A program made the position numbers and the translations under genes. A model generated the notes under the pieces. It was not told where the DNA came from. It was given only the letters and a program-made list of their open reading frames with translations, and searched no databases. Shown here piece after piece: positions 14,101 to 23,100 of a DNA stretch of 64,000 bases. The DNA comes from Diphasiastrum complanatum (taxonomy: Eukaryota > Streptophyta > Lycopodiopsida > Lycopodiales > Lycopodiaceae). Numbering within the stretch: the stretch's first letter is position 1; each line of letters begins with the position of its first letter. The stretch covers positions 41,411,719 through 41,475,718 of the forward strand of contig CM055095.1 in assembly GCA_029204225.1 (NCBI GenBank), given 5' to 3'.

Positions 14101-17100
14101 CTACACCCCCCATGGTATGATGCCGAATGTTGCGCTCTTCATCATCTGTCACCCATGCACGTACTCATGCTCCCCACCTTCTCCGCTCCTCCCGATGCTC
14201 TTACCATCGCACACTCCGTTATAAAAAGTGTGCTTATGATGACTCTGAAGGAAAATGTCTTGTCGACCTTCTCTTCAGCTCTTCTTCGAGCGCTTTTTGG
14301 TGTGAGTTTATCCCTCATGCTACACCACCTCTCCTGGATGACCTCCGCATATTGGCCGACTATGCAAGTAGCCTATATACCATACCCAATGACACATCAC
14401 GACCTTTTGAGTTCACCTTCACCTCTGACATGGTACTTGCGGCCATCAAGAGAATGAAGTCCCAGAAGGCGAGAGATATCGAAGACCTCAAATCTGAACT
14501 CCTAACCCATGTTGCTGACCTCCTTGCTCCCACACTAGCCACTCTCCTCAATTCCGCAGTTGTCTCTGGCTTCCCATCATCCTGGTGCACCAACATCATC
14601 CACCCTATCCATAAAAATTGTGACGCCATGATTCCTAGTAATTACCGCACACACACACACACACACAAATTGAGTTGAGCCCTTGGTACCTACACTTACT
14701 TTTACATTTACACAAAAGGTAGAATTATTTTCAATGGATGTCTTTCTTGTCTATGGATGGTTAGTGAAGATCTTGTTATCTCTCTCTCTCTCTCTCTCCC
14801 CCCCCAAATCCACGGCTGGTAAGTGAGAATCCAGCATGTAATAAGGAGCCTAATTGACATTTGGTTGCCCCAATATGTCAATCTTATCTAACCCTAGAGT
14901 TATGAGGAGTTTGATCCTACAATTTAGAAAACTTAACCTACTAACCTAACTAATCCCTATGATTGATATCTAACTACCCTAGACCTAAACTCATACGTGT
15001 GAACATGCCCTCACAGGTGTGGATTGCAATATGTACCACAAACTATGTGCAAATCAAGCTAGAATTTGCCAATTTTCACAATTTCAAAGTTTCCTCCACC
15101 AGTAGACGTGGAACTAGGCCATTTTCAAGGGATTCCTAGAGAGGACAGGATCTGCTGAATATGTTCCATAGGTGAGGTCGAGAAAGAGCACATGATCTTT
15201 GGCCTGCTGTCCGATTCTTGTTCGAGAACTATTGTCGACCAAGATTTGTCCTCAACTTTTATAATACATGTCACGGACCTTACCTAAACAGATTTTATTA
15301 GGTTGACTTCCTATCTCAAAACAATCACCAGCCACGACTCTTTTCCCATCACAGAATTCACCTGAATAAATATTTGTTGGTCCTTGTTTGTCTCTAAAGT
15401 CCCAGGAAATTGTTTTTGTTGGATCTTTCCATGAAATTTGTCGGAAAAACACATCAACACAAATTTCCTATGGAATCAAACAAAACAAAAAAGGATACAT
15501 TTTTGAGAAACTGATCTGTGAGTTCACTCCTGTGATACCACCTCTCTAACTTCTCCCTCACAGATAGACCTTTGCTAGTGGTAAAGCCCCGTTGAGAGTT
15601 ACAATAAGCCCATAAAGGTGAATCAAATGGATTATTCCATCGTCAAAATGCTCAGCTGAAATATCACTTACAACAAGAACCAGAAAATACTTCATAGACT
15701 AAAGTGATTTCACAAATATTTATGGGCTGGTAAATAGTTTACAGAACATAAAAAGCATCTAAATTTTATGTTAGGATTATTATGACTCAGGAGGTCAATT
15801 CGACAGTCAGACTTTCCTGCGGAGAATGAATTTCTGCTTTAGCAAAGAAAAAGTTTATGAGCCAAATCCAAACATTACATAAATTGACAAAGTTTACAGA
15901 GTACACACCGATGTGTCAACAATTGGGATTAAGGATTGTAGAATCTTGGCTACATTGAATTTGATGTTGGGGACCCTGCAACCAAAAAGCCCCAAATTCC
16001 TTAATACTGCATATAAATCCAACAATAGGCTACACATTTTGAAATGTTTCTATTCATGTCCCCTAAAAGTTTATGTGAGGTGTTTCAACATATGAAAGAT
16101 AATGAATGCAATTGGAAATGTTTGTTGATAACAGCAAATTCTCAAGAAATTTTAAACAAATGCAACTAGAAATTATTTAAGCAAAAAAGTCTATCAGGAT
16201 ACATGAATCCAACATAACGGACATGATATATAGAAAATGGCAAACTGATTAGTGGCTAATAAGGTTGTTCAAAAACATTGATGCTTAACACCTAGACTCG
16301 ATAATCATATAAGCTACGTAATTGGAAAGCTGAATGACAAGTTCGAACAACTAGCGAGATAAATCTAGCTAATCTTAGCTTCCATAAATCTACAAAGTAT
16401 CATTGTCAAAATGAAGCTTTGCTGGTAGCTATGATTTGAGTCATCCAATAATGCTCTGGCTTCCTACTGTTATCGCCAATCCATAGAACCCACGGTTCCC
16501 AGAACTGTGGGTCCTGGGAACCGTGGAAGGAACCGTACCATGGTTCCTTGAACCGTGGTACGGTTCATCTAAATAATTAATTAATTAATTTCCCCCCCAA
16601 AACCCCTCAATGCTCATTTTTGTCCCTCATTTCACATTTTTTGTTGTAGAGGTTGAAAGAGAGGGCGTTTTGGTTTGAGAGAGAGGGCTGCTCAGATTGA
16701 TGAGAGAGAAGAGGGCAGGGTAGAGAGATACTGTAGCGGCCTCTGTAGAGAGAGAAAATTAGGGTTTAGTTGTAACCATCAAGTCTATTGGAGAAAGGCA
16801 GCTCCCTAAATGCAGCACTAGTGGCTATGTGTCTGAGCTGATGTCTGACTCTAATAAGCCTATGCATGACAATCAGGTCGAATGCAAAACGTGTGGGAGC
16901 TGGTTTCTTCAGATCAAGTGAACTGAAGGTGCAGAACAGCGCGAGGGCACGCCTCTTCCAAATGATAAATGTCACCACGGCAAGGGCCATATCAACTATC
17001 TTGCGGACCCAGAGCAAGTGGCCAATATCCCCCAGTATAAGATCAATGTTGTTGCAGCACAGGGGGTCCATACAATAGCAGGGTACTGCTGCTCTAGCAA

Positions 17101-20100: not shown

Positions 20101-23100
20101 CAGGGACACAGATTGAGGGAGAGGTTTTACATGACTTCAGTCAGGCTGTGACAGAGGAGGATGAGTTAGATGATTTTGATGATCCGGATGCCACACATGC
20201 ATCTTGAGGACATGTTGTCATGTTGTTCATTTTTGTTCCATCACACTATATTGTTTTGAGGTCAGACCCCAGCCGTATGTGGCAGGCTCTATATGATGAG
20301 ATTATATACAGAGCATCTCACTTGTTTTCCAGATGGATGGCCAGTTGATGTGCATTGTGTACACTGATGAAATGGTTTACTATGATAGATAGCCTCCCCC
20401 TCTCTCTATCTCCCTCTATCTCTTAACAATTTGGGCATTTTTTCAACTTTTTTGGCCTTTTTTTTGCCTTTTCTTTGGGCTGTTATTGAAAGTGGGTAGT
20501 TAAAAAAAAGGCCATTAAATAATTTGAAGTAAATAATCTAAACTCCCTACAAATCTGCTTTTTCTGGAATTTTTTGGCATTTTTTTAGCATTTTTTTGGG
20601 GTATTTTTGGGGGTGGGACAAAAAAAAAATTAATTGATTGATTAATTAACTACCTGTATGGTTCACCACGGTTCCAGGTAAAAATTCCTGAGAACCGTAC
20701 AGTTCACTGTACGGTTCTCAGAACTGTGGTGAACCATACACGGTTCATTAATTCTATGCGCCAATCTCACAAAATAAAGAAGCAACAATGTTAAAGCATA
20801 AGAGACATAGGCAATCTCTCTGTTTGCTCTCTCTGGCACAACAAAACACAGCAGGCTCCAAGGATATAGAAGGAACTTTCCTAACTTAACTTTTGACACG
20901 TTGAGCATTGAGCATTGAAGAGCTGAGATATCAGGAGTTAAGTTGATACCCCCAGAAAACCATTTTGGCAATATACACTTAAAAGTATCAGGATCAATGC
21001 ACTTTTCAATCTGTTTTTTATTTTTGATTGCTTGACAAAATCTGTGGGTTTTGACTTACATGAGCATATATAAAAAGACTCTTCTTTACCAACATACTCA
21101 GGCGAGCTTGGAGGATATTTCACAAAAGAACTAAATTATGCAACTCTGAGCATTTGCAATGTTACGACTTCAAAAGCTAATTACGCTTTGTCACAAGCTT
21201 TTGAATTGCTATCGAACCATCAAGAGTTCTTAAGTGTGCAATCAACTGCCTGAGAACTGCTGTAAGCATAGGGATGGGCAACCAACTTCAGCTTGAAAAG
21301 TATCAGATGATATATATTGGCAAGTACTTGGAAGTTTCAGGATGCAAGACAAATGGAGCAGCAATTCATATATTTCATGCAAAATTTACAGCAAAATCTT
21401 ACCGATCTTTGGCTGCATTTATTACCACAGGTAGCATCGTCTGGCAAGTAACCTCAGCACCAACGACCGAAGCTAATAGTGAAATCGCATATAAGATTGT
21501 CATGCGATACAGGTAGTGGGGGTTATTAATCATTTCCAATACCTGGTCATGGACAAAGCAACTAAAGTGAACTACTTGAAATTTCTGAAATAGTGGATAA
21601 TTTTCACCAGTTAGAATCAAGAAACAAGCCACAAGTGAGAAAAACAGGAACAGGCCCAACTAATATGTTTGTTCCACCCAGTCTAAATAAACCTATATTA
21701 CCATGGATGAAAAAAGGCTACGATTGCCTCTGGGTCACACTTATAAAAACTTGAACTTGTCATAAATATGAAAGAAGCCACAATAGACAACCTTTTCTAA
21801 GGCTGAAAAGTCAAAAAACTCAAAAACTGTTTAACTAATCCTCTCTAACATCTAAGTATTCATGTTAACATTATGGTAGTAGCTATCCTAATGATAACTT
21901 TGCAAAACTGCAGTAGCATGTTTCCATCTTGGACTACCTTTTGTGATGACTCAAATTTCATGTCTTGCTTAGCACCAACAGTCTCTGCTAATTAGCAAGT
22001 TGTTCATGTTACCTCCTTTAAAAACATAACATGTGGGCTAGCTAGCTTGTAAGGTCTTGAGTAGGTTGAATCATGGCTATAAAGGCATGCTATACCATCA
22101 TGAGACATATTTTATGTTTGAAAAAGCTCTTTGAAAAAGAGCATGGATTCTTTGGACTGACGGCTATCGATACTAGACCAAGAGCTACTTAGCCATGCGA
22201 GGTCGTCTTCACGTGTGAGCATCAGCAATATGGGGTACGCGTGAGCATCAGTGGTATGGGGTCCATAGATACAGCAAATCTAGATTCAAAGGGTTTCAAA
22301 CTTGTTCAATTTGAATCTCATTTTACTCCTAACCATAACTTTGAGTCTTGTATAGATAAACTTTCAAGCATACCATTTAGTGCAATGACTTTTGGAAGGT
22401 AGGGAATGTGTGAGAGCAGACTTTAAGGTCTCTTAAGGCAATCAATATATTCTAAACACACATGATCCTCGCTATTTTGAAGTGAATTTATGTTTAGATA
22501 CTTTGCTCGAAACAAATCTTTTAAAAAAAATCAGTTCTTCAAATCTCGAATGTTATATCCATAAAGCACGAATTTGGTATATCCCAGCCATTCTCACGTT
22601 TTGGAAACTAAGGCCCATTTGGGCCTGCAGCTTCAAGATGGATTGTTGTTGTCATGATCGGAACTTTTGCATGAATCTTTAATTGCTTGTTCCTGAACTG
22701 AACTTAATTCTTTGACCTGGAAAGACTCCCGGGTCTTCTTCGTACTCGTAAATTATCTTCTTGTAACTCCATCTCATAATCAGAATGTAACCAAATGGCC
22801 TGTGGGTCTTAATCTGGCATTCCAGAATTTTACAAATTTTTTATGACGTCCCTGAGTTCTATAGCCTAATGGGTCTTATTCTGGAGTGGAGGTGTTTGGT
22901 CCTTCCCGGTAGTCGCACAGGAAGATGTTATCTTATGACCTAAAAGAAAGTTGCTTAGTACTTTTCATAAGGAGTGTTATTCAAATAAAAATATTCAATG
23001 GCTAAAATCTACCATTTGAATCATTTATTGCTGGACCAAATTAGATTATCCCTTTGGATCTTTCCCTTAGGAAAGATGTCTCACAATATCCACTTGGGGC

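Follow-up and report, generated by a model that had tools for sequence, protein, structure and literature searches.

The hAT element at positions 16482-20758 of the window (the whole stretch of 64,000 nucleotides of Diphasiastrum complanatum DNA analysed in this study, G000:C4:41411719-41475718) is an ordinary decayed copy with a private internal inversion. As comparison with collinear relatives revealed, the segment 16775-18608 is inverted relative to the element's own family. We consider it probable that this arrangement goes back to a private break-and-rejoin event, by end joining, in a decaying copy of the collinear type and later than its insertion. The original prediction of a hAT copy with an internal inversion inside intact ends was confirmed, since one TSD pair is present and both halves belong to one family.

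The copy is a single hAT element that starts with CATAGAA, ends with TTCTATG and is flanked by identical direct 8-bp repeats, the TSD CGCCAATC, at 16474-16481 and 20759-20766, so that the expected perfect TSD and matching termini were found on both sides. Terminal inverted repeats of hAT elements are short, with A at position 2 and G at position 5, and the 7-bp repeats of the window copy fit this motif. The same kind of ends, each with an 8-bp TSD of its own, was observed in relatives (CTAGAAAC in L025, CCTACTCT in L031, GACCACCT in L035 and TTGGGAAC in L006). The DUF659 region is associated with plant hAT-like transposases; it was detected on the minus strand of the window copy at 16996-17712 (E 6.2e-24) and in the relative L035 (E 4.4e-47). 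On the plus strand, hATC was matched at 18583-18936 with E 0.019 for the first exon alone, which is under the Pfam cut-off; with two adjoining exons joined, hATC (PF05699) reached E 1.3e-10 in L035 and passed the cut-off. The next hATC exon is present in the window copy from 19034 on and contains a stop, and an intron at about 18940-19033 appears to divide the hATC region. The BED finger (PF02892) stayed under the Pfam cut-off in the window copy (E 0.037), and the BED profile gave no match to the L035 exon. Judged by its TSD, ends, DUF659 and hATC, the window copy is a hAT element. It cannot encode a normal transposase, because a 229-bp deletion and in-frame stops disrupt the gene in addition to the inversion. 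In its 8-bp TSD, short terminal repeats, DUF659 and hATC regions and decayed transposase gene, it is like the non-autonomous derivatives of hAT elements (Ac/Ds, hobo, Tam3).

Mapped on L035, a collinear, full-length relative of 5,082 bp, the window copy consists of 1-286 in plus orientation, 305-2264 in minus orientation without 1501-1729, and 2581-3597 and 3972-5082 in plus orientation. The 5' end (16482-16774, plus strand; L035 1-286) has kept its original orientation and contains CATAGAA, a GGTTC-rich subterminal region and the first GA-rich leader unit. It is followed by the inverted block of about 1.83 kb (16775-18608, minus strand; L035 305-2264) with the presumed leader, the BED-like and Pro-rich parts and DUF659. 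Inside this block, 18307-18424 has no match in L035 and is matched by other relatives, and 18425-18608 (minus strand) is the second GA-rich leader unit, now central, as recognised by repeat comparison with collinear relatives. The 3' part (18609-20758, plus strand), again in its original orientation by L035 mapping, comprises hATC, a low-complexity C-terminal part, the 3' subterminal region and TTCTATG; L035 3598-3971 (374 bp) is replaced here by about 40 bp at 19590-19629. Protein pieces of L035 run leftward over 18250-17645 and 17641-16775 and rightward from 18610. These pieces and the DUF659 match support the predicted leftward reading of the BED, Pro-rich and DUF659 parts and the rightward reading of hATC, but the BED and hATC matches of the window copy themselves remained under the cut-off.

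The breakpoints, which had been expected near 16.79 and 18.59 kb, were placed at 16774/16775 (left) and 18608/18609 (right) against collinear relatives. At the left breakpoint about 17 bp of the collinear form are gone (9-21 bp depending on the relative, mostly 16-18). At the right breakpoint 315-330 bp are missing in comparison with four of five relatives (L031, L032, L034 and L035) and 165 bp in comparison with L033; the stretch lost here appears to run from an exon end through an intron into the first bases of the following exon. Within the inverted block, a further 229 bp are absent at 17307/17308 (minus strand), at the start of DUF659 in the region that carries the DGWSD motif in relatives. 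A lost intron, which would be a sign of an RNA intermediate, was rejected as the origin of this gap; the sequence is coding in relatives and its absence is therefore a deletion. In L002 the missing stretch overlaps with this one but is not the same (relative 1411-1629), and losses at the start of DUF659 thus seem to have occurred more than once in the family. Re-inversion had been predicted to restore the domain order of a second hAT of the window at 29641-35220. The order is indeed collinear there and in the relatives, but the flip is not clean, as the losses at both breakpoints and inside the block show.

Relatives were drawn from the own 1.74-Gb genome with 16482-18600 as query, and the best 40 of 2470 candidates, the window included, were scored. 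Twenty-nine relatives were made into loci (L002-L030), and 10 further candidates were read from the matches listed. The 5' end and the block 17308-18608 lie on opposite strands in the collinear arrangement; this was observed in 26 of the 29 loci, the same strand in none, and no 5' match was seen in three. Among the matches listed for the other 10 candidates, nine are collinear and one lacks a 5' match. In total, 35 of the 39 relatives are collinear at the left breakpoint, none is inverted and four are not scorable, and the window copy alone carries the 5' end and the block on one strand (among the best 40 of 2470 candidates). The number of independent copies is smaller than 39, since near-identical pairs occur among the relatives (L002/L028, L013/L015, L016/L020 and L029/L030 in 17308-18306). 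The hATC part (18609 on) is collinear with the N-terminal block in 18 of the 29 loci, absent from the locus in 10 and inverted in one (L007).

Identity to relatives with long matches is 71-93% in 16482-16774, 77-94% in 16774-17307, 86-93% in 17308-18306 and 80-94% in 18609-19037. In the tree of 17308-18306 the window copy takes an ordinary position, with an end branch of 0.029 (median 0.029), which agrees with a decaying ordinary copy; the end branch of 0.035 in the tree of 18609-19037 (median 0.02) counts against it. The tree is star-like with the window copy inside no well-supported group, and the copy is one among many from a star-like burst. Adjacent or nested short family members do occur in the genome (L003, L010, L011, L012), and two different hAT elements, abutting or nested, might in principle have produced the opposed halves. 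However, two abutting hATs, each with its own TSD, were not observed at 16482-20758, where one TSD pair only is present, and the junctions are without element ends. The parts complement one another as pieces of a single 5.1-kb element and do not overlap, and their identities to the long-match relatives in 16774-17307, 17308-18306 and 18609-19037 are those given above. Halves from different subfamilies were not found either, both belonging to one family by identity and by the L035 map. Two abutting elements were therefore rejected on the single TSD pair and the complementary pieces, and an origin from two elements is altogether a negligible prospect.

Both junctions were searched for in the own genome by a word-based method that skipped very common words. 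With a 101-bp probe for the left junction, the window alone spans it, 38 places match the left side only and one matches the right side only (best 40 of 269 candidates). With a 141-bp probe for the right junction, the window is again the only spanning place, with 14 matches to the left side only and 25 to the right side only (best 40 of 244 candidates). A second copy with either junction was not found among these places, and the rearrangement is clearly private within them. This result bears on the suggestion that a non-autonomous hAT with this inversion has multiplied as a mobile rearranged lineage. With intact ends and TSD, mobilisation in trans would in principle be feasible; however, a two-sided match should outscore the one-sided matches listed, and the absence of a sister copy among the 40 scored places per junction therefore weighs against a lineage, as does the lack of any inverted form among the 35 relatives scorable at the left breakpoint. 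Such a lineage is very improbable. A single-copy inversion is in itself compatible with transposition after the inversion, since a cut-and-paste move leaves one copy.

The central divergent promoter-like, GA/CT-rich region that had been attributed to this lineage has an ordinary explanation. It corresponds to the presumed transposase leader of the family, which is tandemly repeated in collinear relatives and was brought to the centre by the flip. In the window, the GA-rich stretches 18469-18536 and 16702-16769 match in inverted orientation (75%), and in collinear relatives they form a direct repeat; the inverted repeat is thus a result of the flip and not its cause. An inversion through the GA-rich leader repeats as sole cause was rejected on the same grounds. 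Microhomology or foldback repeats at the breakpoints were also looked for, as had been suggested. The overlap with the alternative side is 1 bp at each join (A at the left, G at the right), and in L031 the left breakpoint zone shows a 10-bp inverted match to one side of the right breakpoint, with one in 400 random pairs being as good. The same comparison gave 6-7 bp only in L032, L034 and L035, and for the other side of the right breakpoint a 5-bp inverted match, no better than random, was obtained in all four relatives. A pairing-assisted event via inverted microhomology is possible, but the short matches in three of the relatives lend it little weight.

Minus-strand pieces were flagged in five loci, namely L007 and L036 (one copy), L010, L012 and L014. 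L007/L036, with L037 (G000:C17:3752400-3760400), is a second copy with a different internal inversion. It covers L036 1170-8001 and L037, about 3753569-3761511 of G000:C17, and is bordered at both its 5' and 3' ends by the TSD CTGTTTAT. On the L035 map, its order is plus 56-1670 (interrupted by a small gap), minus 3076-2091 (enlarged by about 460 bp of inserted sequence) and plus 3547-5082; other DNA separates these segments, about 75 bp after the first and about 3.1 kb after the second. The breakpoints of this inversion are not those of the window copy. The end of the 3.1-kb insert reads as what we take to be part of a gypsy-type polymerase and suggests that a resident copy was decaying. Since L036 carries its own, different inversion, internal-inversion scars recur in the family; two clear cases were counted in a sample made up of the window copy and 29 relatives, of which not every one was covered up to the 3' end. 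L014 with L043 and L050 (G000:C6:70603716-70615200) may be a third case. It contains a 5' part (relative 1-2421) and an opposed, complementary 3' part (5082-2519) with 1.5 kb of other DNA between them, and its flanking 8-mers differ (GGGTGGGT vs ATGGGAGG), so that L014 may represent one or two copies. L010 and L012 were set aside as inversions, because their minus pieces are short and both element ends are present, as in a nested short derivative. Short MITE-like derivatives of about 250-520 bp, consisting mainly of the two family ends, lie beside or inside longer copies (L003 342-766, L011 676-1108, and others within the 3' ends of L010 and L012).

How the inversion arose can be outlined as follows. 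An ordinary collinear member of the multicopy hAT family would have inserted at CGCCAATC, and the resident copy would later have suffered two breaks about 2 kb apart. End joining would then have put the middle piece back in reverse, with a loss of about 17 bp on one side and 315-330 bp on the other. The single element, its inversion, the exact breakpoints, the losses and the absence of a second junction copy among the scored places are direct observations. The event most likely took place where the copy now lies, through end joining or repair with inverted filler, and not just before the last cut-and-paste move. Alternatively, the inversion would have formed during transposase activity by abortive gap repair, in which an excision would be followed by incomplete refill from an element copy, with a stretch inserted inverted as filler and the same TSD kept. 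The losses that flank the inverted block resemble an internal deletion with inverted filler, and L036 has likewise lost sequence at both breakpoints. In the available part of PMC2213677, PIF/Harbinger copies were generally found to fit this model, and internal inversions are reported among them. However, the inversions themselves are linked there to tandem repeats and not to gap repair, simple two-break end joining yields the same anatomy, and the retrotransposon-like DNA at the L036 breakpoint fits decay of a resident copy better. We therefore regard abortive gap repair as unlikely, though worth keeping in mind, and prefer end joining in a resident copy. It is also conceivable, but quite doubtful, that inversions with two-sided losses keep arising in this hAT family through an inversion-prone route of gap repair, in which breaks made by the transposase are refilled with element sequence in reverse; the window copy, L036 and perhaps L014 would in that case bear the traces of this route and not of random decay.

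Related rearrangements have been described in other systems. PMC3260210 reports Ac elements in decay with fragments of the transposase gene; Ds-del elements are described there as internal deletions, and the word "inversion" does not occur in the main text; the window copy differs from these Ds-del elements in having an internal inversion. The Medicago truncatula PIF/Harbinger copies of PMC2213677 are, as far as the available text goes, similar in being plant DNA transposon copies with terminal repeats and an inverted internal region. They belong to another superfamily, however, and tandem repeats are held to help there, whereas the leader repeats of the window family, given their direct orientation in collinear copies, cannot by themselves have mediated the inversion. 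Alternative transposition of Ac/Ds also leads to hAT-associated inversions (PMC8225341 and PMC3470690, in the parts available). In that process the ends of two nearby elements take part and flanking DNA is inverted, whereas both breakpoints of the window copy are internal and no ends are involved.

The window copy is a well-resolved case of the decay of a resident DNA transposon in a large genome, with one-base breakpoints and collinear relatives. Opposed transposase halves inside intact ends need not imply either a pair of elements or a new lineage. Should internal inversions prove unusually frequent in this family, it might offer a natural series for studying the repair of transposon breaks. 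The neighbouring hAT at 29641-35220 (29633-35228 including its TSD CATTGGGC) is collinear. The reading frame on its right (to 35698) resembles what we assume to be a copia-type polymerase, and this hAT therefore probably sits in a retrotransposon. Direct repeats were also observed at 3741-4399 and 7603-8182 of the window (91% identical over 300 nt and 98 nt, at a distance of about 3.8 kb), which are possibly the ends of one repeat element.
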